Below, piece by piece: positions 4,530-57,943 of a stretch of 64,000 nt of DNA. Source of the stretch: Candidatus Eiseniibacteriota bacterium (lineage in GTDB: Bacteria > Eisenbacteria > RBG-16-71-46 > CAIMUX01); assembly GCA_903844735.1 (NCBI GenBank), contig CAIMUX010000079.1:62001-126000 (forward strand), written 5' to 3'. Made by a program: the position numbers and the translations under genes. Position 1 is the stretch's first letter. Each line of letters begins with the position of its first letter. A model generated the notes under the pieces. That model searched no databases, was not told where the DNA came from, and saw nothing but the letters and a program-made list of their open reading frames with translations.

Positions 4530-5326
4530 ACGACCCGTTCGGCCGTCCCATCGATTACCTGCGCGTGTCGGTCACCGACCGGTGCAATCTGCGCTGCTGG
4601 TACTGCGCGCCGACGCGAAACTGGAACCTCCTGCGTCACGAGGAGCTCCTCTCGTTCGATGAGATCGCGCAGGTCGTGCGCGCCGCGACTGCACTGGGGT
4701 TCCGCAAGTTCAGGATCACCGGCGGCGAGCCGCTTCTGCGCCCCGGCCTGCCCGATCTGGTACAGCGGATCGCGGTAGCATCCGGCGTCACGGACATCGG
4801 CCTCACCACGAACGGCCTCCTGCTCGCGGAGATGGCGCGGCCGCTGCGCGAGGCTGGACTCCACCGGGTCAACGTCTCGCTCGACGCCGTGGACCCGGCC
4901 CGTTTCGCGGCGATCACGGGAGGTGGTGACGTGGCAACGGTCCTTGCGGGGATCCAAGCCGCTCTTGAGGCGAACCTGCGGCCGGTAAAACTGAACTGCG
5001 TGGTGGAACGCGACCCCGATGAACCCGACGCCCGCGCGGTGGCCGCCTGGGCCGCAGCGCATGGCTGCGAGGCCCGGTTCATACCGCACATGGACATGAA
5101 GCGGGGAGTCTTCTCGAAGGTCTTCGGAGGCGCGGGCGGCGATTGCCCCGCCTGCAACCGGCTACGGCTCTCCTCGGCCGGGTTGCTTCTCCCCTGTCTC
5201 TTTTCGGAGCCGGCCTTCAACGTCCGTGAACTGGGCGCGGAAGAGGCGTTGCGCCGCGCTATCGATGCCAAGCCCGAGGCCGGCGGACGCTGCTCGCGGA
5301 ACTGGATGCATGGAATCGGCGGGTGA
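4526..5326 (+). CDS. moaA: GTP 3',8-cyclase MoaA, short form
   Basis: Radical-SAM enzyme for the first step of molybdopterin synthesis (GTP to the cyclic precursor, together with MoaC). The N-terminal cluster motif is CNLRCWYC and ITGGEPLLR follows. The second cluster is carried by CPACNRLRLSSAGLLLPC, and the chain ends in the Gly-Gly tail required in MoaA proteins (MHGIGG). At 266 residues it is some 60 shorter than classical MoaA. The region between RFIPHMDM and the second cluster is reduced to about 15 residues. Both clusters and the tail are intact, so this looks like a short MoaA subfamily rather than a pseudogene. The start ATG is fixed by the 4-bp overlap with moeA. Confidence 0.9.
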   Translation: MNDPFGRPIDYLRVSVTDRCNLRCWYCAPTRNWNLLRHEELLSFDEIAQVVRAATALGFRKFRITGGEPLLRPGLPDLVQRIAVASGVTDIGLTTNGLLLAEMARPLREAGLHRVNVSLDAVDPARFAAITGGGDVATVLAGIQAALEANLRPVKLNCVVERDPDEPDARAVAAWAAAHGCEARFIPHMDMKRGVFSKVFGGAGGDCPACNRLRLSSAGLLLPCLFSEPAFNVRELGAEEALRRAIDAKPEAGGRCSRNWMHGIGG

Positions 5327-5345
5327 CTCAGGGAGGAAGCATGAC

Positions 5346-5804
5346 ATGAGCGGCTTGTCCCATCTGGATGACGACGGACGTGCGCGAATGGTAGATGTCG
5401 GCGGCAAGCCGGTGCAGCGGCGCATCGCCAGGGCGGAGGGGCGAATCTCCCTCTGCCCGCAAGGGGTAGCCCTGCTCCGCGAGAACCGGCTCAGGAAGGG
5501 TGACGCCCTCACGGTGGCCCAGGTGGCGGGGATCACCGCCGCCAAGCGAACCGCCGAGCTGATCCCGCTCTGTCACCCGCTGGGGCTGGACCATGTGTCG
5601 GTGGATCTCGCCGTCGTCGATGACGGTGTTACAGTCACGGCCGAGGCGCGCTGTCTCGGCCGCACCGGCGTGGAGATGGAGGCGCTGACCGCGGTGAGCA
5701 TGGCCCTCCTCACCATCTATGATATGTGCAAATCGGTCGACCGCGGCATGCAGATCGACGGGGTGCGGCTGATGGAGAAGCGCAAGGAGGATCCGGAGGC
5801 GTAG
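5346..5804 (+). CDS. moaC: Cyclic pyranopterin monophosphate synthase MoaC
   Basis: A 152-residue MoaC, which converts the MoaA product into cyclic pyranopterin monophosphate. The family motifs are present: MVDVGGKP, AAKRTAELIPLCHPL, GRTGVEMEALTAV, and YDMCKSVDRGMQI carrying the catalytic Lys and Asp. The gene starts 19 bp after moaA, in the same operon. The ATG at 5346 is preferred because the encoded protein begins at the usual family position (MSGLSHLDDDGRARMVDVG). Confidence 0.95.
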   Translation: MSGLSHLDDDGRARMVDVGGKPVQRRIARAEGRISLCPQGVALLRENRLRKGDALTVAQVAGITAAKRTAELIPLCHPLGLDHVSVDLAVVDDGVTVTAEARCLGRTGVEMEALTAVSMALLTIYDMCKSVDRGMQIDGVRLMEKRKEDPEA

Positions 5805-42248: not shown

Positions 42249-44417
42249 CTAAGCCGCCATCTGTCCGTGCCCGCCCACGTGAGTGGCGTACTGCTGGTCC
42301 ATCTTCTGGATGTGATTGACCAGCCAGTCGCGGACCATGCTCATCGCTTCCGGACCAATTGCCGTGTCGCCGGCATTGACCTTGCGCCGCAGCTCCTGCA
42401 CTTGGGCGATGAAGCGCGCGTGGGCCGTCTTCTGTTCGGCCAAACCAGGGTAGCGATGCTTCTCCAGCAGCCGCTCTTCGGCCGTGAAGTGGTACTCGGT
42501 GTAGCGCGCCAGCTCCGTGACGAGGTTGGCCGTCACCCGACTGGAGCGACCGACTTTCATAGCCTCGTGGAGCTGGTTGATCATCTCGAAGAACCTCTGG
42601 TGCTGGGTGTCCATGGTCGGGACGCCGATGGCGTAGCGATCGCTCCACTCCGCGAACGGCCTGCCCCCGCCGCCGGCCGCCGGCCGCCGTGCTGCCGCCC
42701 CCTGTTTGTTGAACCCGACGGAGGTGCCCACGGATCCTTCGTCGAGCTGGAACCGCTGGACCATCCCGCGAAGTTGGTCGGCCAAATCGGAGAGCTCGAT
42801 CGCCCCGGCGTTCACCATCTCGCTGCCGGAGAGGATCTCGGTCGATGCGTGATTGACCGAAGCAATGTCCGCGGAAATGGAGCGCGAGACGGTGGCTGTT
42901 TGTCCGATATGCTCGCTGACTTCGTTCACGCCGGACGAGGCTCCCGCGATGCTGCCCGCGATATCGCGTGTCACCGTCGACTGCTCCTCGATGGCGGTGG
43001 CAATGGTGGTGACGATCTCACTCACATCGCGGATGACTTGGGAGATCCGCTCGATGTCGGCGATGGTGCCGCCGGTCGAGGCCTGGATCCCCGAGATCTT
43101 GGCCTTGATGTCCTCGGTGGCCGCCGCCGTCTGCTGGGCCAGTTCCTTGATTTCGTTGGCGACCACGGCGAACCCTTTGCCCGCTGCGCCGGCCCGCGCC
43201 GCCTCGATGGTGGCGTTCCGTGCCAGCAGGTTCGTCTGCGCGGAGATGCTGGTAATCGTCTCTGTGACCTGGCCGATCTCCTGGGCGGCGACGCCGAGGT
43301 TGCGGATCAGGGTGGAAGCGCTTTCCGCCTGCATCATGGCATCCGCGGTGATTCGGCGCGCCTTCTCCGAGTTGCCGGCGATCTCGCCGATGGTCGCGGT
43401 CATCTCCTCGGTGGCGGCGGCGACGGTGGTCAGGTTGCCGCTGGCGCCCTCCATCCCGCCGGCGACGGCCTGAATGGTGGCGCTCATCTCTTCGGCCGCC
43501 GCGGCGACGGTGCCGGCCCGAGAGACGGCATCGCGAGCATTCTCGGTCATCTGGCTGGAGGCGGCTGAGAGGTTGGTCGAGGAGTTGGTCAGCGTCTCGG
43601 TTCCCTGAGAGATGTCCCGGATCGCCGAGCGCATGTTGACCTGGACATCCTGGACGCTGCGCGCCAGGGCGCCGAACTCGTCCCCGCGTTCGAGGTAGTT
43701 GCGCGGGACGTCTTGGGTGAGGTTCCCCGCGGCCACCTCGGCGAGGACCTCGATGGTGCCCGCCACCGGCTTGGTGATGCTGCGCGAGATGATAAAGCCG
43801 AACAGGAAGGTGCCTGCCGTCGCCAACAGCGTTGCCAGAATCATCCAGAGGCGGGCCGAGGCGGCGGAGCGCTCGGCCGCCTTTTCATACTCGTCCACCT
43901 TCGCGATCCGCCACGCGGTGAGCTTCTGGATCGCCTTATCCATGCCGCCGTAGTACTTCATCGACTGCCCGGAAAAAACGGCGGAGGCCTCCGCCCTCTT
44001 GCCCTGGAGGGCGAGCGTACTGACCTGAAGGTTGGCTTGCCTCGCCGCGCCGACCGCCTCTTCTACGTCCGCGAGCAGGCGTTTCCCTTCCTCTGTCTTA
44101 GCCTTGGTCTGGAGTTCCTTCAGGGTGGACTTGTAGCTTTCCCGGTGCTTCTGAACGTCGCTCTCCAGAGCGTTCTGCTCGGCACGGTCGGAGACGATGG
44201 TCATCTCGGCCAAGCAGAGGAAGATGTTGCTGACTTCGATATCGACCGAGCTGACCTGTCGGAGTTTGATGGCCTCCTCGGCCAGACTGTCGACCTTGGC
44301 ATTCATTTGTGAAATCGTGATCAAACCGATGATTCCGACGGCGACCAGCGCAACGGCGAGGACTCCGTAACTGACCCCAAGCCTCTTGCCGACCTTCATG
44401 TCGTGCAGCCAGGACAT
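42249..44417 (-). CDS. Methyl-accepting chemotaxis protein with C-terminal hemerythrin domain
   Basis: A 722-residue receptor. It has an N-terminal helix ([18 protein letters not shown]), a four-helix-bundle periplasmic domain, a second helix ([20 protein letters not shown]), HAMP ([20 protein letters not shown]) and the long signalling coiled coil with hairpin tip [17 protein letters not shown]. The usual tip Leu is Arg here. The last ~130 residues form a bacteriohemerythrin domain: [38 protein letters not shown] and a further HARF, giving the H...HxxxE...HxxxH di-iron pattern. This domain should sense O2 or NO in the cytoplasm. The signalling half is nearly identical at DNA level to the MCP upstream. 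Confidence 0.94.
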
Positions 44418-44442
44418 TTTCGCTCCCCCTTGTCGAGAACCA

Positions 44443-44545
44443 TCAGGCGGCGAGAGCCGCCGCTCCCAATTGCGAGCGCACACCATCCAGCAGGCGCTCC
44501 CGTTCGATCTTCACCGGCCTGCCGTTCACCCCAAGCTCAGGGGCC
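44443..44545 (-). pseudogene. Fossil 3' end of a second cheA copy
   Basis: On the minus strand the codons before a TGA read [20 protein letters not shown] then [12 protein letters not shown]. This aligns with the end of the intact CheA ([20 protein letters not shown] then [10 protein letters not shown]), and the DNA match continues into the leader of the following MCP. Nothing else of that cheA copy remains. Confidence 0.85.
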
Positions 44546-44601: not shown

Positions 44602-46407
44602 TCAGGCCGCCCTGCGTACGCGTTCGCCCGCGTGCGATGCGCGCTGGGGGGCCGGCTTCCGGGTGTTGCCAATCTGCCGGATCGCCGTCCCCTGATTCCT
44701 GGACCCGGCGGAAGAACCGATCGAATCCTCGTCGAGCCGGAACCGCTGGACCATGCTGCGGAGCTGGTCGGCCAGGTCGGAGAGCTCGGTCGCCCCGGCG
44801 TTCACGATCTCGCTGCCGGAGAGGATCTCGGTCGAGGCCTTGTTGACCGAGGCGATATCCGAGGAGATGGAGCGAGAGACGGTGGCCGTTTGTCCGATGT
44901 GTTCGCTGACCTCGTTCACGCCGGCCGAGGCTCCCGCGATGCTGCCCGCGATGTCGCGGGTCACCGTCGACTGCTCCTCAATGGCGGTGGCGATGGTCGT
45001 GACAATCTCGCTCACATCTCGGATAACCTGGGAAATCCGCTCGATGTCGGCGATGGTGCCGCCGGTCGAGGCCTGGATCCCCGAGATCTTGGCCTTGATG
45101 TCCTCGGTGGCCGCGGCCGTCTGCTGGGCCAGTTCCTTGATTTCGTTGGCGACTACGGCGAACCCCTTGCCCGCCGCGCCCGCCCGCGCCGCCTCGATAG
45201 TGGCGTTCAAGGCCAGCAGGTTCGTCTGGGCGGAGATGCTGGTGATCGTCTCGGTCACCTTGCCGATCTCCTGGGCGGCGACGCCAAGTTCACGCATGAG
45301 GGCGGAGGCGCTCTCGGCTTGCATCCGGGCCTCCTCGGTGATCCGGCGCGCCTTCTCCGAGTTGCCGGCGATCTCGCCGATGGTGGCGGTCATCTCCTCG
45401 GTGGCGGCGGCGACGGTGGTCAGGTTGCCGCTGGCGCCCTCCATCCCACCGGCGACGGCTTGGATGGTGGCACTCATCTCCTCGGCCGCCGCGGCGACGG
45501 TGCCGGCCCGGGAGACGGCATCGCGGGCGCTGTCGGTCATCTGGTTGGAGGCGGCGGCGAGGTTGGTCGAGGAGTTGGTTAGTGTCTCGGTCCCCTGGGA
45601 GATGTCCCGGATCGCCGAGCGCATGTTGACCTGGACATCCTGGACACTGCGCGCGAGGGCGCCGAACTCGTCCTGGCGTTCGAGATAGTGCCGCGGGACG
45701 TCTTGGGTGAGATCTCCGGCAGCCACCTCGGCCAGGACCTCGATGGTGCCTGCCACCGGTCGGGTGATGCTCTTGGTGATGACGATCGCCGTGAACACGC
45801 CGAAGGCGACGAAGAGAAGCCCGGTGAGCATCAGGATGAGGGTGGTTGTCCTGACCGACGATTCGATCTGGGCATCGAGGGCGGCCTCCTTCTGCAGTCG
45901 ATGATCGACGTACACGGCGATCGCCGCGTCGATCTTGTCGTTGGCCGCGCCGAGTTCATCGGTGTACAACGCGATGGCATCGTTGATCTTCCCGCCGTCA
46001 GCAAGTGTCATCGCCTGCTTCACCATGGAGCTGAAGTCCACCATACACGAACTGCAGCTATTCACCATTTGGCGTCCGGCCTCCGATGTGGCTCGGTCGA
46101 GAAGATACTTGGCGTTATCGGCGAAGTCCTGTTCAGATTCACTGACGAGTCGGCCGTGCTCTGTTCTCTCCGAGGCCTCGCGGTGTAGAATGTAGTTCGC
46201 GAGGTTATCCATGACGTTCTCGACATCGAGCGACATGTCCCTGACTCTGGCGATCTTCTCACCTTCCGTGCGGAGCATGTCGTTCGAATCGTTGACCTTC
46301 TTGACGGCGACGATACCGCCGCCGCACACCAGCACGAGGGCCAGGACGACGACGCCATACCCGACTCCAAGCCTCTTGCCGACCTTCATGTCGCTCATCC
46401 AGGACAT
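44602..46407 (-). CDS. Methyl-accepting chemotaxis protein (periplasmic CxxC)
   Basis: A 601-residue receptor. Membrane helices are [18 protein letters not shown] near the N-terminus and [20 protein letters not shown] before HAMP ([20 protein letters not shown]). The periplasmic four-helix domain contains the pair [10 protein letters not shown], rare in this domain type and possibly redox-active. The signalling domain has tip [17 protein letters not shown]. From HAMP to the end it is almost identical to the hemerythrin MCP. Downstream of VRRAA it stops without a hemerythrin domain. It follows cheA by 25 bp. Confidence 0.94.
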
Positions 46408-46432: not shown

Positions 46433-49400
46433 TCAGGCGGCGAGCGCCGCTTCCCCTAAGAGCGAGCGCACGCTTTCCAGCAGGTGCTCGCGGTCGATCT
46501 TCACCTGGTACACATCCACCCCGAGCTCACGGGCCCGGGAGACGTCGTCCTCGCCCGCCAATGAGGAGAGGGCGATCACCGGTATGGCGGCGAACCTTAA
46601 GTCGGCGCGGATTCTCCTCGTGAGCTCCAGCCCGTTGAGGCGCGGCATCTCGATGTCCGTGACGACGAGGCTGACGGCGTTCCCGAGTTTCTCGAGCTGC
46701 TCCCAGGCCGCTTCCCCGTCCTCCGCCGCGGCCACCCGGTAGCCGCCTCCTTCGAGGTAGCTTTTCACCTGGGCGCGGAAGAAGTCCGAGTCCTCCGCGA
46801 GGAGGAGCAGCGGACCTTCCCCGCCGGCCAAAGCTTCCTCTGCTCCCGGGGACTCCACCGCCCAGCCGGGCCAAGCCGACTCCACCAGTTCGTGGACATC
46901 GAGTGCGAGCGTGGTCCGGTCCCGGATGATGGCCGAGCCTGATATTCCCGGGCGCCGCAGGGTGACGGTGTCGACGGCCGCCGATGTCTCGATGACATCG
47001 ACTGGCATGGCGGCGACTAAGCCGATCTCGTTTCCACCGAGGTGGAAGACGATGACGACGAGTTCGCGGTCGGAACCGAGTTCCATCCCGGCGCCCGCGT
47101 CGGCGAGGGTAACCAACGGCAGGCTGGCGCCGCGATACTGCATGGTGCGACGACCGCCCATCCACTCGATGCGCTCCGCCGCGATCCGTTCCACCCGCGT
47201 GACGAGCGATAGAGGTACGGCGCAGCGCTCCTCGGGTCCGTTGTCGAAGACGAGGAAGGCGTGGTTCTCGGCCGACTCCTCGCGCTGGGCTTCGAGCGCG
47301 AGCTCGCGCGCGCGGTCGGATCCCGCCATGGACGAGAGCCCCGCCACTCCCGCCAGCCCGGCGGCATCGAGGATGAGCGACACGCGCCCGTCCCCGAGGA
47401 TGGTGGCGCCGGCGTATTCGCGCAGGCCCTTCAGGTGCCGTCCCAGCGGTTTGACCACGATCTCGAGACTGTCGTGCAGCTCCTCCACCACCAGTCCGTA
47501 GAGGAAGGCGCCGGCCGAGACCACCACGACCTTGAGGTCGCTCCCCTGGTCCGCGCGCCGATCGCGCATGCGCCTGGGGTCGGCCGCCGCCTCGGAATCC
47601 AAGCCGAGCAGGACGGACAGCTCCACGACCGGGATGAGGGTGTTGCGCAGGACCAGCACCTCGGCATCGCCCACCACCTCGATCCGCTCTCGGATCTGTC
47701 CGGCGGTGATGCGGATCAGCTCGCTGACATTGATCTGCGGAATCGCGAAGCGTTCCTCGCCGACCGAGACGAGCAGCGACGGGATGATGGCCAGGGTGAG
47801 CGGCAGCTTGATGCGGAAGGTCGTCCCCCGGCCCGCCACCGAGTCGATCTCAACTTGGCCGCCCAGCCGGTCGAGGTTGGTCTTGACCACGTCCATCCCG
47901 ACGCCGCGGCCGGAGACATCGCTTACCTTTTCCGCGGTGGAGAGTCCGGGGAGGAAGACCAGCGCCCGCTTGTCCGCGTCGGACATCACCTGCATCTGTT
48001 CGCGGGTGATGAGCTCACGGGAGAGAGCCGCGTTGGCGATCTTCTCCGGGTCGATTCCCTTCCCGTCATCGGCGATTTCCACCACGACCTGTCCGGCCTG
48101 GTGGCTGGCCTGGAGACGCACCGTGCCGCCCGCGGGCTTGCCTTGGGCGGTGCGCTCCCCGGGCGACTCCACCCCGTGGTCGACCGCGTTGCGGACCATA
48201 TGCGTGAGTGGATCGCTCAAGCCTTCGATCAGCGTCTTGTCGAGCTCGACATCCCGGCCGTTCAGCTCGAGGTGAATGTCCTTGCCCAGCTCGCGCGAGA
48301 GGTCGCGCACCAGCCGGGGAAACTTCCCGAAGAGATTGCCGATCGGCTGCATGCGGGTGAACATCACCGCTTCCTGCAGCTCGGAGGTGACGAGGTTGAG
48401 GCGCTGTCCTCCCGCGCGGATGGAGTGGAGGTCCCCGCGCCCGATCGCCTCATTGAGCTGGTTGCGCCCGAGCACCAGTTCGCCGGCCAAGTTCATCAGG
48501 GTGTCGAGGAGGCCGACCTGCACGCGCACGGTGGCGTCGCCGCCGCCGGTCAACGTGCCGCCGTCCGCGGCCGTGGTCTCGGTCGAGGCGCGCCGGGAGG
48601 CCCGGGGCCTGGCGACCGGCGCGGAGGCATCGCTGGTCGGGAGCGGAGGGGGCGCCGTCGTCATGGGCGAGGCGGTCGCCGTCGTGGTCCCAACCGGCGC
48701 GGGGCGGGCCCTCGGGGTCGTCGTTGTCGTGCTCCCCGTCGGTACAGGGCAGGCCATCGGGCCGGACGCCCTGGTGGTCCCCATCGGCACGAGACAGGCA
48801 GCCGAAGCGGTCTCTGTGTCCTGCTCATCCGCCGAGAAGGCGCTGGCCGGTTCCTCCAGCACCCGGATCCGCTCGGTGGGAATCTCCACGAGCACCGCCA
48901 TGACGGTCGGGTCGACCACCGAGGCGTAGAGCACGCGCAAGACCAGCTCGTTGGTCGGCTCGTCCTCCAGCGTCCCCGCTGAGGCCAGATCGACCTGGGC
49001 ATCAAGGATTGACCCGCAGTCGAGGAGTGCCTTCATCACGTCGAGCGGCGTCTTCCCGCGGCGTTGGACATCGTGAATCAGGTCGACCTGCAGGAGGTAG
49101 ATGTAGCATCCCTCCCGCCGCGCCCGCACGAGGTCGAACTCCGACACCTTGATTTCCCCGGGCAGGTCCGGCGCGGCGATCACGACCTCCTGGCTGATGC
49201 TGGCCTTCTCCTCCGGCGGCAGGAACGACGAGGCCAGTCCGGAGAGAGCCACCATGATTTCGCTGATGTCCTCGCCGTTGCTCTCCTGGTGCCGGTTGAT
49301 CATCTCGCGTAGCCGGTCGAAGGCGAGCAGCAGAATGTTGACCACCTCGGGGGCGGGGATCATCTCCCGCGAGCGCACCATGTCGAGGACATTCTCGGTG

Positions 49401-49609
49401 CGGTGCCCCAGCTCCTGGATCTTCACCAGGTTGAAGAAGCCGGCCCCGCCCTTGATGGAATGGGCGGCGCGGAAGACCTTGTTCACCAACTGTTCGTCGA
49501 TGTCGGCCCCGCCCTCTTCGATGGTGAGGAGGTCGTTCTCGATGTCGGCCAGATGCTCGCGGCATTCCGCGAGGAACTCGCCGAGTAGCGCGTCATCACG
49601 CTCGTGCAT
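46433..49609 (-). CDS. cheA: Hybrid chemotaxis kinase CheA-CheW-REC
   Basis: A 1058-residue kinase. The Hpt domain carries phospho-His50 in [15 protein letters not shown] regulatory segment and a Thr/Pro/Ala-rich linker follow (about 270-350). Next are the dimerisation domain ([20 protein letters not shown]), the HATPase ([38 protein letters not shown]), a first CheW-like domain ([20 protein letters not shown]) and a second one ([20 protein letters not shown]). The C-terminal receiver has [10 protein letters not shown] and phospho-Asp in [13 protein letters not shown]. Two CheW domains plus a receiver make it like kinases of alternative-function systems. It follows the STAS gene by 11 bp. Confidence 0.95.
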
Positions 49610-49620
49610 GCGGCACCCCC

Positions 49621-49932
49621 TCAATCGTCCGCGACGGTGAGATGCTGGTTGAGCCGCATGGCCGTGAAGAGTTCACGGATCTCCGGCGAGGCGTGCACCA
49701 CGGTGAGAGTTCCCCCCACCTTTTCCAGCGAGTTGTGGGCGGCCATGAGCAGGCCGATTCCCGAGGAATCGACCATCCGGGCCTCGCCGAGATCCAGCAC
49801 CAGCTCCCGAACCCCCTCCTGCAGCAGATCGCGCAGGACCGGGCGCAGGCCCGGCACCGTGGTGGAGACGATGTCGCCTCCCGCCTGCAGCACGGCCTTT
49901 GTTCCATCGCGGGTGACGGTTGATTCCATCAT
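49621..49932 (-). CDS. STAS domain protein (anti-sigma factor antagonist-like)
   Basis: A 103-residue SpoIIAA/RsbV-like protein. The conserved phospho-acceptor Ser lies in ARMVDSSGIGLLMAAHNSLE; VRELVLDLGEARMVD and LTVVHASPEIRELFTAMRL are typical STAS strands. Its start overlaps the stop of the HATPase gene by 4 bp, the usual layout of partner-switch pairs. It probably binds the HATPase in its unphosphorylated state. No sigma factor is nearby, so the output may be the chemosensory kinase instead. Confidence 0.92.
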   Translation of the reverse strand: MMESTVTRDGTKAVLQAGGDIVSTTVPGLRPVLRDLLQEGVRELVLDLGEARMVDSSGIGLLMAAHNSLEKVGGTLTVVHASPEIRELFTAMRLNQHLTVADD

Positions 49933-50417
49933 GGGCTCCTTTGCTGTCTCAGTTGCCGGACCAGTTCTACGCGGTTGCCCGCCTCGTTGAAGCGCAGGTC
50001 CGTGGCATAGAGGCGCAGGATGGCCATGCCGCGGCCCGAAGTTCCTGTGGAATCGGGAGGACGGGCCAGCGCCGCTCGCCAGTCAAACCCCTTCCCGTCA
50101 TCCTCGACGGCGATGGAGAGCGTCCTCGGCGCGAGCCGTACGACGCAGCGGACTTCGCAACGGGGATCGCCCGCGCAGCCATGGCAGACCGCGTTGGTCA
50201 AAAGCTCGCGGATGAGCAGCTCAACCGCGAAGAGCTCCGCATCATCCAGGCTCTCCGCGAAGAGAGTTCGCAGACGAAGGCAGAGCGCCTCCAGCGCCTC
50301 GAGAGATGCAGGAATGTGCTCGCTCACCTCGCGCACGCCGCTCACACCCATCTCCGCGGTGTTCATCGTGGTCGTTTTCCCTGCGTCCTTCCCTGCGTCT
50401 TTCCAGCCGTCCGTCAC
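49929..50417 (-). CDS. RsbW-like HATPase serine kinase (anti-sigma regulator)
   Basis: A 162-residue GHKL ATPase. N box: LLIRELLTNAVCHGCAGDP. G boxes: EDDGKGFDW and SGRGMAILRLYATDLRFNE. Such proteins phosphorylate a STAS partner on Ser and sequester a target when the partner is phosphorylated. The GTG at 50417 is preceded by GGAGGCGGGAG; an internal ATG at 50366 is an alternative start. It overlaps the STAS gene and follows the lone receiver gene by 26 bp. Confidence 0.9.
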   Translation of the reverse strand: MTDGWKDAGKDAGKTTTMNTAEMGVSGVREVSEHIPASLEALEALCLRLRTLFAESLDDAELFAVELLIRELLTNAVCHGCAGDPRCEVRCVVRLAPRTLSIAVEDDGKGFDWRAALARPPDSTGTSGRGMAILRLYATDLRFNEAGNRVELVRQLRQQRSP

Positions 50418-50442: not shown

Positions 50443-50838
50443 TCAGGCCGCCAGTCCGAAATCCTTGAGACAGCCGACGAGCTTCTGGCGGTCGATCGGC
50501 TTCGCTAGATAGGCATCGCACTGCTCCCGAAACGCCGTCATGACATTGACGCGATCTTTCAGGGCCGTCGTCATGATGATCTTGGTTCCCTGGCCGAGGC
50601 TGATCCCGGCGGCTTCTTCGAGGCCGCGGATCTCCTTCAGCACCTCCTGGCCATCCATCTCCGGCATCATGATGTCCAGGCAGACGAGGCCGTAGGGCGC
50701 GCCGCTCTTCTTCGCTTCTCGAAACGCCTCGAGCGCCTCCGCGCCGTTGACCGCGACGTGGACTTCCCCGAACGGCGACAGAAATTTCTGGAGCAGCAGG
50801 CGACTGGTGAAGTCGTCCTCGGCGATCAGAGCCTTCAT
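50443..50838 (-). CDS. Single-domain response regulator (CheY-like)
   Basis: A 131-residue stand-alone receiver. Acidic pocket ALIAEDDFTSR, phospho-Asp in LVCLDIMMPEMDG, Thr in IIMTTALKDRVNV and Lys in AYLAKPIDRQKL. It has no output domain, so it acts by protein contact, like CheY or Spo0F. It is the first gene of the eleven-gene chemosensory operon; an upstream AAAGGAG ribosome site precedes its ATG. Confidence 0.94.
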   Translation of the reverse strand: MKALIAEDDFTSRLLLQKFLSPFGEVHVAVNGAEALEAFREAKKSGAPYGLVCLDIMMPEMDGQEVLKEIRGLEEAAGISLGQGTKIIMTTALKDRVNVMTAFREQCDAYLAKPIDRQKLVGCLKDFGLAA

Positions 50839-51155: not shown

Positions 51156-51350
51156 GTGGGAGACAAGATGGTCAAGTACTACGACTACGCCATGCAGAAA
51201 GGGGGGATCACCCTCCAGATGCGCCTGGCGATAAAAACCGGCGTGACCTCGGGCAACGCCAAGACCGCGCCGGACACGCCGGACCAGGTCGCGAAGTTCC
51301 AGTCCGTGCTCAAGGAACTTCTCAACGATCCCAACATCCCGCGTTTCTAG
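51156..51350 (+). CDS. Small helical protein of the V4R operon
   Basis: A 64-residue protein: GDKMVKYYDYAMQKGGITLQ, MRLAIKTGVTSGNAKTAPDT, PDQVAKFQSVLKELLNDPNI, ending PRF. It looks mostly helical and soluble with a central Thr/Ala/Pro loop. An AAGGGGGG ribosome site lies seven bases before the GTG at 51156; the ATG at 51168 is an alternative. It is 16 bp upstream of the first V4R gene. No family is recognised. Its position suggests a partner or regulator of the V4R proteins. Confidence 0.7.
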   Translation: MGDKMVKYYDYAMQKGGITLQMRLAIKTGVTSGNAKTAPDTPDQVAKFQSVLKELLNDPNIPRF

Positions 51351-51366
51351 AAGGAGGGAGGAAGAA

Positions 51367-51903
51367 ATGCCGCAAATCAAGCAGGTCACACTGGTCACGA
51401 ACCAGACGTTCGATCCCACCCGGTGCCGTCACTACACCAACGGCGTGACGACGGTCCTCCACTGTCACCACTACGCGTCGCTCTACACGCAACTCGCGGA
51501 TGACGCCACGCTGTTCGACGGCAAGACCATCCTGCGGAACACGGCCGAGAACAGCTTCTACGGCGTGCTGCAGAACTACATGGTCGACCAGAAGATCTCC
51601 CGTCGGGAGGACCGGGTCGCTGCCGTGGAGCAGTACTGGGCCTGGTGTGGCATGGGCGAGTTGAACATCTGTGACGCGAACCAGAACAACGGCCGGGCCG
51701 AGATGACCAGCTCTCATGTCGACGCGGGCTGGATCAAGAAGTGGGGGAAGCGGGACGAGCCGGTCAACTTCATCACCCAGGGTTACCTCGCGGCCGCCTG
51801 GTCGGTCATCTGGGACACCCCGATGAACACCTGGCAGGCCACGGAAACGCAATGCCTCGTCAGCGGCGCGCCCAAGTCGGTCTTCACGATCGGCCGGAAG
51901 TAA
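51367..51903 (+). CDS. V4R-like ligand-binding domain protein (first of pair)
   Basis: A 178-residue single-domain protein. The C-terminal half has the V4R (4-vinyl reductase/BchJ-like) pattern: SSHVDAGWIKKWGKRDEPVN, then FITQGYLAAAWSVIW and CLVSGAPKSVFTI. The N-terminal half contains the His/Cys-rich TTVLHCHHYASLYTQLA and WCGMGELNIC. V4R domains bind small hydrophobic ligands or tetrapyrroles in transcription factors and BchJ. No DNA-binding or catalytic domain is attached here. A strong ribosome site (AAGGAGGGAGG) precedes the ATG. The role is likely ligand sensing, but this is inference. Confidence 0.75.
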   Translation: MPQIKQVTLVTNQTFDPTRCRHYTNGVTTVLHCHHYASLYTQLADDATLFDGKTILRNTAENSFYGVLQNYMVDQKISRREDRVAAVEQYWAWCGMGELNICDANQNNGRAEMTSSHVDAGWIKKWGKRDEPVNFITQGYLAAAWSVIWDTPMNTWQATETQCLVSGAPKSVFTIGRK

Positions 51904-51914
51904 GGAGGTCACCC

Positions 51915-52508
51915 ATGAGCTTCGACCGCAAGTCCGTCATCAACGACATCTCCAAGGTGGGGGTGACCAGCAATGATCAAGGCCTCATCGAGGGGTTCGG
52001 GGTCTATGTCAACCGCCTTCCCGCCGATTTCTGGCGTGGTTTCGGCGAGAACATCATGAAGGCGGTGCCGACCGATCTGAGTGACGCGGCGTGGCATCTG
52101 TTGTACAACGCGGGCCACGAGTGCGGCTATCACACCGGGTACGGCATCGTGAACTCGGAGGAGTGGAAGGCAATCGTCCAGCCGCGCGTGCAGAAGGCTC
52201 CGGAAGACGTTTTGAACGGCGCCTTCGCGGTCTTCACCGGCTGGGGCTGGGGCAAGACGGAGATCATCGAGCAGTCGCCCGAACGGATGGTCGTCCGCGC
52301 CTACGACTACTACGAGGCCGATGGCGCGACCAACGGCACCGTCAAGCGAAACATGGCTCCGATGATCTGCGGTGTGGCGGCGGCGTTCTTCGAGCTGGCC
52401 TACGGCGGCCCCTACCCGAACGGCCTGAACAAGGCGGTCGGCCAGCAGGTCAAGGGGATCGAGACCGGTGACGACTACGGAGAGTTCGTCGTCACGCGCG
52501 TCGCTTGA
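51915..52508 (+). CDS. V4R-like ligand-binding domain protein (second of pair)
   Basis: A 197-residue protein. The first ~75 residues are helical (FGVYVNRLPADFWRGFGENI). HECGYHTGYGIVNSEEWKAI leads into the V4R-type core: FAVFTGWGWGKTEIIEQSPE, RMVVRAYDYYEADGATNGTV, MICGVAAAFFELAYGG and a final GDDYGEFVVTRVA. It is a paralogue, at domain level, of the preceding protein and follows it by 11 bp with ribosome site AAGGAGG. Together they probably form a heteromeric sensor. The family assignment is by pattern. Confidence 0.75.
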   Translation: MSFDRKSVINDISKVGVTSNDQGLIEGFGVYVNRLPADFWRGFGENIMKAVPTDLSDAAWHLLYNAGHECGYHTGYGIVNSEEWKAIVQPRVQKAPEDVLNGAFAVFTGWGWGKTEIIEQSPERMVVRAYDYYEADGATNGTVKRNMAPMICGVAAAFFELAYGGPYPNGLNKAVGQQVKGIETGDDYGEFVVTRVA

Positions 52509-52647: not shown

Positions 52648-53856
52648 GTGGAAGTGATATACCTGAACCACGCCGCGACGAGCTGGCCCAAGCCGCCGGA
52701 GGTGATCCGGCGCGTGCGGGAGACCTTGGAGGCGCCGCCCGTCGAATCGGGGCGGGGGAACGGGCGCGGAGCGGATCCGCTGCGAGCGTGTCGTGAGTCC
52801 CTGGCCACGCTCTTCGGGATGCGCGATCCAAGCCGCGTGGTGCTCACCGCCGGGGCGACGCATGCGCTGAACCTGGCGATTGTCGGGGCGGTGGGAACCC
52901 TTGCCGGGGCCGTGGGGACGCGCGACGGCACGTTGGAGACTCTCGGCGGAGCCCCGGTTCGTTGTGTCACCTCCGTCCTGGAGCACAATTCGGTCCTGCG
53001 CCCGCTGCGGCATCTGGAGCGCGACGGCCGATTGGCTCTCGACTTTCTTTCGCTGGACGAGTTCCGCGATCCCGCGGCCGTGGCGCGACGGCTGCGCGAC
53101 GGCACGCGGCTCGTCGTCCTCACCGCCGCCTCGAATGTCACCGGGGCGCGGCCCGACCTACCGACCGTGGCCGCGCTCTGCGAGGAGGCGGGGGCGATCC
53201 TCGTGGTCGATGCGGCCCAGGCCGCGGGAGCGTTCCCGCTCGACATGCCGTCGCTCGGCCCGCGGGCGTTGGTGGCGTTGGCGGGGCACAAGGGGCTGCT
53301 CGGACCAGCCGGAAGCGGGGCGCTTCTCGTGGGAGAAGGGTTTCGCGACGACGAGGTACCGCCGTTGCTGGTGGGCGGCACCGGCGTGCGCAGCGATCTG
53401 CCGTTTCAGCCGAGCGAGTGGCCGCTGCACCTTGAGGCCGGGACGATGAACCTGCCGGGGTTCGCCGGGCTCGCCGCGGGCGTGGACCTGGTTCTCGGCG
53501 AAGGCGTGGAGCGGATCGGTGCCCACCGCGCGCACCTTACGACTCTGCTACTGGACTGGCTCGAGGAAATCCCCGGCGTGCAACGGCACCGGCCTCTGCC
53601 GGGAGAACTGGCGGCCGGGGTCGCGGCGTTCAACCTCGCCGGCTGGGATCCCGGTGAGGCCGCGCTGGTCCTGCAGGAGTCGTGGGACATCGTGACGCGG
53701 GGCGGACTCCACTGCGCTCCGTTGGCGCTGCCGGCCCTCGGCTGGCCGAGCGGTTCCCTGCGCGCCTCCGTCGGCCGGTCCTCGACCGAGGCAGATGTTC
53801 ACGCTCTCGTGGCGGCGGTGCGAACTCTGGCCGCCTCCTCGGCCGCGGCCGCGTGA
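52648..53856 (+). CDS. Class V aminotransferase, cysteine desulfurase-like
   Basis: A 402-residue PLP enzyme. It begins VEVIYLNHAATSWPKPPEVI, as in the family of stand-alone cysteine desulfurases. HALNLAI and VTSVLEHNSVLRPL carry cofactor-stacking residues, LVVDAAQAAGAFPLDM carries the Asp and Gln, and the Schiff-base Lys is in VALAGHKGLLGPAGSGALLV. The active-site Cys is in VTRGGLHCAPLALPALGWP. It should release sulfur or selenium from cysteine or selenocysteine. The GTG at 52648 is chosen from a GGGGGA ribosome site and family alignment. A broken copy of its tail lies at 57785. Confidence 0.9.
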   Translation: MEVIYLNHAATSWPKPPEVIRRVRETLEAPPVESGRGNGRGADPLRACRESLATLFGMRDPSRVVLTAGATHALNLAIVGAVGTLAGAVGTRDGTLETLGGAPVRCVTSVLEHNSVLRPLRHLERDGRLALDFLSLDEFRDPAAVARRLRDGTRLVVLTAASNVTGARPDLPTVAALCEEAGAILVVDAAQAAGAFPLDMPSLGPRALVALAGHKGLLGPAGSGALLVGEGFRDDEVPPLLVGGTGVRSDLPFQPSEWPLHLEAGTMNLPGFAGLAAGVDLVLGEGVERIGAHRAHLTTLLLDWLEEIPGVQRHRPLPGELAAGVAAFNLAGWDPGEAALVLQESWDIVTRGGLHCAPLALPALGWPSGSLRASVGRSSTEADVHALVAAVRTLAASSAAAA

Positions 53857-53863
53857 GAAGCCG

Positions 53864-54241
53864 GTGACGGGGCGGAAAGACGACGAACGCGACCGGGAGC
53901 GGGAGGGGCAACGGAACGTTTCGGCCCTGACGATTCGCGAGATCGCCCTCGTGGAGGACTGCTTTGAGGACTCGGCCATCCGGGAGATCCGTCTGGCCCG
54001 CGCGCTCGACGAGACCGCGGTGTTTCGACTGGCAACGATCGGCGACCTTGAGTATCACCCGGAGTTCCCCCGGCCGTTCTTCCGCGTTCGAATTCCCGGC
54101 GGCAGCTACCTGAAGGGTGTCGTCGGCGCAGAGTCGTTCCGGGTCTTCTTTCCCCGGCCTCCTGACGCGGCGGAGTTGAGGGCGTTGGGGGAGGCAGTGG
54201 AGGCGGCGCTCGCGCTGCCGGTACCGAATTCTGATCGTTGA
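53864..54241 (+). CDS. Conserved-looking protein of unknown function
   Basis: A 125-residue protein beginning 8 bp after the desulfurase-like gene with a GTG. After a charged N-terminus (GRKDDERDREREGQRN) the core reads TIREIALVEDCFEDSAIREI and ATIGDLEYHPEFPRPFFRVR, then GGSYLKGVVGAESFRVFFPR. It alternates strands and helices and has a single Cys. It is not the DUF3343 Se/S carrier often found beside such desulfurases. No family is recognised. The tight spacing suggests it works with the desulfurase-like enzyme. Confidence 0.7.
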   Translation: MTGRKDDERDREREGQRNVSALTIREIALVEDCFEDSAIREIRLARALDETAVFRLATIGDLEYHPEFPRPFFRVRIPGGSYLKGVVGAESFRVFFPRPPDAAELRALGEAVEAALALPVPNSDR

Positions 54242-57784: not shown

Positions 57785-57943
57785 GTGCGCCGAGTGGTGG
57801 CGTTCAACCTCGCGGGCTGGGATCCCGGCGAGGCCGCGCTGGTCCTGCAGGAGTGGTGGGGCATCGTGACGCGGGGTGGACTCTACGGCGCTCCGTTGGC
57901 GCTGCCGGCCCTCGGCTGGCCACACGGTTCGCTGCGGGCCCGG
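57785..57943 (+). pseudogene. Partial copy of the cysteine desulfurase-like gene tail
   Basis: About 50 codons repeat the C-terminal region of the gene at 52648: VVAFNLAGWDPGEAALVLQE, GIVTRGGLYGAPLALPALGW and PHGSLRA. The parent reads VAAFNLAGWDPGEAALVLQE and DIVTRGGLHCAPLALPALGW. The His-Cys of the active site has become Tyr-Gly. The frame then leaves the family. It is a diverged duplicate fragment or the remnant of a second paralogue. Confidence 0.85.

Follow-up and report, generated by a model that had tools for sequence, protein, structure and literature searches.

The window, the whole stretch of 64,000 nucleotides that was analysed, carries three short genes set between a divergent chemosensory operon and a gene for a cysteine desulfurase-like protein. 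The question that the locus raises is whether these genes serve one of the two neighbours, and in what capacity. A reading of the sequence alone (the sequence-only reading) had described two V4R-like proteins and a small protein of 64 residues, and had proposed a ligand-sensing input to the chemosensory pathway or to the desulfurase gene. The genes concerned are:

51156-51350, + strand: SM, GTG start, 64 codons; no Pfam, NCBIfam or PDB match
51367-51903, + strand: V1, ATG start, 178 codons; V4R-superfamily protein
51915-52508, + strand: V2, ATG start, 197 codons; V4R-superfamily protein, homologous to V1
52648-53856, + strand: DES, class V aminotransferase/cysteine desulfurase family, TIGR01977-like below the cut-off
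53918-54241, + strand: P94, GTG start at 53918, about 107 residues with an invariant Cys
50443-50838, - strand: single-domain response regulator; the divergent chemosensory operon starts with this gene
49929-50417, - strand: RsbW-like HATPase_c_2 protein, in the chemosensory operon
49621-49932, - strand: STAS-domain protein, in the chemosensory operon
46433-49624, - strand: CheA hybrid with Hpt, H-kinase_dim, HATPase, two CheW and a receiver domain
44602-46407, - strand: methyl-accepting chemotaxis protein (MCP) with 4HB, HAMP and MCPsignal
42249-44486, - strand: second MCP, with a C-terminal hemerythrin domain

The three-gene module

SM and V1 are separated by 16 bp, V1 and V2 by 11 bp, and 317 bp lie between SM and the end of the divergent response-regulator gene at 50838. 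These spacings, together with the coordinates, sizes and start sites given by the sequence-only reading, were correct on re-reading, and the strong ribosome sites claimed for both V4R-like genes are present (Shine-Dalgarno sequences aaggaggg and aggaggt, 5' of V1 and V2, respectively). The GTG start of SM is supported by its relatives, ten out of ten of which begin with M[G/A]xK, or near it, in the same column. All three genes are taken as real because their relatives share sequence identity (48-60% for V2 and 30-47% for V1 within the window's clade) and because the order SM-V1-V2 is kept in other phyla. Scans for sigma-70 promoters and terminators between 50800 and 54500 found none, and the sigma-54-like patterns in the 317-bp gap were unconvincing. 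The third-position GC of SM, V1 and V2 (0.87-0.91) is similar to that of the CheA and MCP genes of the window; the module, if acquired, is well adapted to its host by base composition.

V1 and V2 are remote V4R-superfamily proteins

Window V1 matches the Pfam V4R family (PF02830) with E=0.18 (12.3 bits against a cut-off of 31) and window V2 gives no match to Pfam; the curated cut-off is reached by neither. These scores mark a limit of sensitivity, and the two proteins are therefore filed at superfamily level only. Their relatives are closer to the family, with V4R matches at E<=0.01 in 22 of 37 sequences for V1 (best 8.7e-9) and in 21 of 38 for V2 (best 1.4e-5). Against the PDB, the profile of the V1 family finds MJ1460 (2e-4) and MopR (0.009), and that of the V2 family finds MopR (0.0046, aligned over about 125 residues). 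The V1 and V2 families are homologous to one another (hhalign 98%).

The AlphaFold model of V1, built from three sequences, has a pLDDT of 74 and is good for residues 50-178. In a Foldseek search it matches the phenol-sensor domain of PoxR (1.6e-7), more weakly those of MopR and DmpR, and also TRAPPC3/Bet3 (1.4e-5), MJ1460 (3.6e-5) and YslB. Superposition on the phenol sensors gives a TM score of about 0.65-0.69 with an rmsd near 8 Å, a high value that is perhaps due to the uncertain N-terminal part of the model. The V2 model is poor (pLDDT 53) and a fold search with it returned no significant match; the V4R/Bet3 fold found in the V1 model is assigned to V2 through homology.

No enzyme profile of Pfam or NCBIfam matches V1 or V2 (V4R goes back to an old name, 4-vinyl reductase). 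Both reading frames stop after the V4R region, with no AAA+ or DNA-binding output domain. V1 and V2 are thus remote V4R-superfamily proteins without an output domain, an assignment carried by the relatives and by the fold. The label "V4R-like" stands at this level for both proteins, while the window sequences themselves stay below the Pfam cut-off; the profile and structure searches led to the V4R family and to the PoxR fold. The conserved residues of V1 comprise the motif HCHHY (H32-Y36), whose HCHH is kept in 37/37 sequences with C33 invariant, and G95, G97, W122, E160 and F173. In V2 the invariant residues are C70 (43/43), T74, G77, P90, D98, G111 and Y133.

Pairing of V1 with V2

V1 lies directly 5' of V2 in all but a few of the 43 V2 loci. 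It is cut or frame-shifted in two (L065 and L069), and in two sister loci (L071 and L074) it is found on a different contig of the same genome. The two proteins are fused in L003 and L061 and apparently also in L062, where the V1 part is weaker. The pairwise distances of V1 and V2 are correlated (r=0.96 for 37 loci, 0.73 within the window's clade), of which shared ancestry alone would give much. Since the two genes are adjacent in nearly all loci and fused in two or three, a V1-V2 heterodimer is likely, and would be the simplest reading of the adjacency, the fusions and the correlated divergence. Such a heterodimer would be a heteromeric V4R pair of the Bet3-Trs33 type. Proteins of the Bet3 family, in the V4R/Bet3 (TRAPPC3) superfamily (PF02830; Podar et al. 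2008, PMC2253512), work as dimers of like or unlike subunits. V1 and V2 resemble this superfamily, including MJ1460 and the prokaryotic stand-alone V4R proteins, in fold, sequence profile and the absence of an output domain, and differ from it in being two divergent V4R proteins encoded as a fixed and sometimes fused gene pair, with a small partner and adjoining kinase pathways.

Two clades and the zinc site

In the V2 tree, clade A (14 loci, the window included) is split from the rest by a branch with support 99; clade B is used here as shorthand for all 29 V2 loci outside it. Comparison with the one-component regulators MopR, PoxR and DmpR/CapR (XylR_N + V4R) separates the two. MopR-type sensors hold zinc by three Cys and one Glu (PMC10715001). 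This pattern is kept in V1 of clade B, where the zinc-ligand Cys positions are occupied by Cys in 23/23 V1 sequences at all three sites and in 27, 27 and 26 of 29 V2 sequences. In clade A the zinc Cys are absent from both subunits, V1 having Asn at the first position in 14/14 and V2 having Ala, Gly and Gly in 14/14. The zinc ligands being absent from their clade, window V1 and V2 are not MopR-type zinc sensors; they probably work like ligand-binding V4R domains. PoxR gives the best fold match of V1, and the V2 profile aligns with MopR with a shared CGY, whereas the module has two subunits instead of one and no AAA+/DNA-binding output domain. The phenol-anchoring Trp134 of MopR, which acts with His106, aligns with residues other than Trp in the V1 and V2 profiles, in alignments that are weak. 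The V4R sensor histidine kinases such as PcrS (PMC10715001) are alike in coupling V4R ligand sensing to a kinase; here the V4R parts are separate proteins, for which an action in trans is proposed.

A first V2 scan of genome contigs gave two relatives, one in Bacteroidales (L002) and one in Desulfobacterales (L003). With a profile of three V2 sequences, the class of L003 gave V2 in 35/340 genomes and the order of L002 in 7/247. A broader profile picked it up in 1/296 genomes sampled from the phylum of L002 and, among 47 genomes of the window's own phylum, in the window's genome alone. Because the search started from clade A, these counts may miss more distant relatives. No clade B V2 relative was found in the plasmid records searched. 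The patchy spread suggests horizontal transfer, though third-position GC in the window is normal.

The small protein

In 10/14 clade A loci SM is found immediately 5' of V1, and its residues G17, M22, P39, D40 and E54 are invariant in the window's clade. Searched singly or as a profile against Pfam, NCBIfam and the PDB, it gave nothing significant, in agreement with the first impression that the small protein matched nothing recognised: the family has no Pfam entry. A helix-turn-helix reading, derived from paralogue sequences, found no profile support.

A profile search in the class of L003 found SM relatives away from V1-V2. Two lie beside receiver-DUF4388-roadblock genes (L082 and L096), and others adjoin a DUF4388 gene (L099), a stand-alone PocR sensory domain (L097), a CHASE4-HAMP protein (L098) and a 123-residue protein without a Pfam match that resembles the roadblock-like end of the L082 receiver protein (L100). 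Weak, partial matches in GTPase-like proteins of 331-333 residues (L101 and L102, Obg-type by eye) were set aside as another family. The neighbourhood analysis proposed for the 64-residue protein thus shows that its relatives recur beside PocR, CHASE4 and roadblock/DUF4388 genes. SM is repeatedly found in the company of signalling genes, which makes a role as an adaptor plausible.

Signalling neighbours

The divergent operon of the window encodes a receiver, an RsbW-like ATPase, a STAS protein, the CheA hybrid and two MCPs. Six of the 14 clade A loci (the window, L003, L037, L038, L039 and L059) have an MCP gene no more than 5 kb away, where 0.79 would be expected from the MCP counts of the genomes (P about 4e-5, by a rough model). 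In L038 the order is MCP-SM-V1-V2-CheA, and this CheA is 44% identical to that of the window over its full length, the best of 14 CheA-like matches to window CheA in its genome (G266). We consider this match the strongest single argument for the divergent CheA as the likely partner in the window. L003 combines CheA, an MCP, a V4R protein, a SpoIIE phosphatase, SM and fused V1-V2; the V4R protein (5269-5793) is separate and clear (PF02830, 6.6e-13) and adjoins SpoIIE in the same chemosensory cluster. In L041-L043 roadblock genes take the place of the MCP; L041 and L043 also carry genes for a sigma-54 activator and a receiver. No kinase or MCP was found within the stretch read in L002, L040 and L060.

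Two further features of the neighbourhoods can be mentioned. The STAS and RsbW-like genes (49621-50417) lie inside the CheA operon, and SpoIIE phosphatases are found near V1-V2 in L003, L058 and L061, which hints at a partner-switching output. The hemerythrin MCP (42249-44486) may feed an oxygen or redox signal into the CheA pathway of the window.

Outside clade A, a PAS-type histidine kinase follows directly 3' of V2 in 24/29 loci, mostly with overlapping reading frames, and a response regulator is usually next. In 22/29 of these loci, MtrH, UroD-type, B12-binding or RACo-like corrinoid methyltransferase genes lie within 9.5 kb. The V1-V2-histidine kinase-response regulator operons L044-L074, from genomes of the class of L003, are usually near them. 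Such genes are of the kinds found in anaerobic O-demethylases, and by analogy a methoxylated phenol or other methoxylated aromatic is a reasonable guess for the clade B ligand.

The proposal of a ligand-sensing input that has no output domain of its own is well supported by the V4R/MopR homology and by the consistent kinase, MCP and CheA neighbours. Nothing was found that points to the binding of heme or a tetrapyrrole. The association with the chemosensory pathway is not obligatory. A module widespread without chemosensory or desulfurase genes had been named beforehand as evidence against it, and 29 loci have neither, mostly with a histidine kinase/response regulator pair instead; in clade A, MCP and DES are each present at 6/14 loci. 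The module is therefore better described as a general signalling input than as one specific to chemotaxis or to the desulfurase.

The desulfurase and P94

DES matches Aminotran_5 (9.6e-54) and, over its whole length, TIGR01977 (E=6e-81), with 272 bits against a cut-off of 377. Both the PLP lysine (GHK) and the catalytic-Cys motif (RGGLHCAP) of cysteine desulfurases are present. Compared with TIGR01977 proteins (EF2568 type) and SclA, DES differs in its sub-cut-off score and in being paired with P94 and V1-V2. A 142-bp piece of DES (53625-53766) is repeated with 91.5% identity 4.2 kb downstream (57799-57940), apparently as a duplicated or degraded DES fragment.

P94, alone or as a profile, gave nothing significant against Pfam, NCBIfam and the PDB; its relatives keep the invariant Cys and a DCFDGS-like motif. 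DES and P94 occur together at 6/14 clade A loci, a seventh has P94 without DES, and in L002 desulfurase, P94, SM, V1 and V2 form a single run. Among 340 genomes of one class P94 was found in two, both times at a V1-V2 locus. Because P94 lies only beside V1-V2 in the class searched and because of the co-occurrence in clade A, DES and P94 appear functionally tied to the module and would belong to the same unit there. The suggested link to the desulfurase gene holds to this extent, DES being always accompanied by P94 at the six loci, and is not obligatory, DES being absent from the 29 related loci.

A proposed sensor acting in trans and its rivals

The reading that we prefer, with moderate confidence, is that SM-V1-V2 encodes a V4R sensor of two subunits that acts in trans on an adjacent kinase pathway. 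V1 and V2, homologous V4R-fold proteins and probably a heterodimer, would form a soluble sensor with SM as an accessory, and would bind a small, probably hydrophobic, ligand. The pair lacks an output domain and would signal in trans, to whichever kinase pathway is encoded beside it: in the window most likely the divergent CheA/MCP/STAS/RsbW operon, perhaps by direct action on CheA, and in the relatives MCPs, sigma-54/roadblock regulators or a histidine kinase with its response regulator. In clade A, DES and P94 would be part of the same functional unit, possibly with some sulfur chemistry. Several observations count against this sensor. The module is divergent from the chemosensory operon of the window and not within it, the V2 model is poor, L002, L040 and L060 show no kinase or MCP in the stretch read, clade A lacks the zinc ligands, and neither subunit aligns a Trp with Trp134 of MopR.

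Some of the same observations can be read differently. V1-V2 could act in a sulfur-handling unit, in which sulfur from DES passes by way of P94 to the cysteines of V1 and V2 (or in which a sulfur ligand is produced and sensed), the chemosensory neighbourhood being of secondary importance. The pairing of DES with P94, the invariant Cys of P94 and its restriction to V1-V2 loci among the 340 genomes, the invariance of C33 and C70, and the retained lysine and cysteine motifs of DES all agree with it. However, the 29 loci that have neither DES nor P94 keep C33 and C70 just as strictly, both genes are missing from 7/14 clade A loci (though L037 and L060 are cut by contig ends), and kinases are found more often as neighbours. 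We regard this reading as unlikely. A combined version, in which a zinc-less two-subunit V4R sensor gives a signal dependent on DES-P94 (sulfane sulfur or a sulfur ligand at the invariant Cys), with SM as the adaptor into CheA/MCP, seems to us decidedly unlikely.

The invariant HCHH of V1, which could bind a metal or cofactor, and the corrinoid genes near 22/29 clade B loci would also fit a cofactor enzyme or chaperone, handling for example tetrapyrroles or corrinoids, in place of a sensor. In clade B, however, the immediate downstream partner is a histidine kinase and not an enzyme (24/29), and the fold search points first to ligand sensors and TRAPP subunits, with no enzyme profile matching; such a role is very unlikely. 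That V1-V2 are orphan V4R proteins beside which signalling genes lie by coincidence could be argued from the varied neighbourhoods and from the position of the window module on the strand opposite the chemosensory operon. The excess of MCPs (6 against 0.79 expected), the downstream histidine kinases with their mostly overlapping reading frames (24/29), and the matching CheA of L038 make coincidence highly improbable.

Relation to known V4R systems and meaning

V4R domains have been described before, as have stand-alone V4R proteins and kinases that contain V4R. The open-access literature, to which our search was confined (subscription papers lying outside its scope), gave no account of V1 and V2 as a fixed pair that, with SM, acts on kinases in trans, and none of a zinc-less V4R clade with a desulfurase and P94; nor did experimental work on any member come to light. 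No paper was found that treats the V4R domain and chemosensory systems together, or that connects V4R to the corrinoid methyltransferases of sulfate reducers.

V4R proteins that lack an output domain occur widely, and few of their partners are known. The recurrence of V1-V2 beside many different signalling pathways points to what is probably a detachable sensing unit, and a zinc-less sensor dependent on DES-P94, if true, would be a new class of soluble chemosensory input. The two clades, one of which has lost the zinc site from both subunits, form a natural pair in which structure and signalling can be compared. A eukaryotic vesicle-tethering protein that works as heterodimers probably descends from V4R. 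In bacteria, a V4R pair whose kinase partner in cis can be predicted (V1-V2-histidine kinase-response regulator) can be tested directly for its ligand, for heterodimer formation and for the kinase that it controls.
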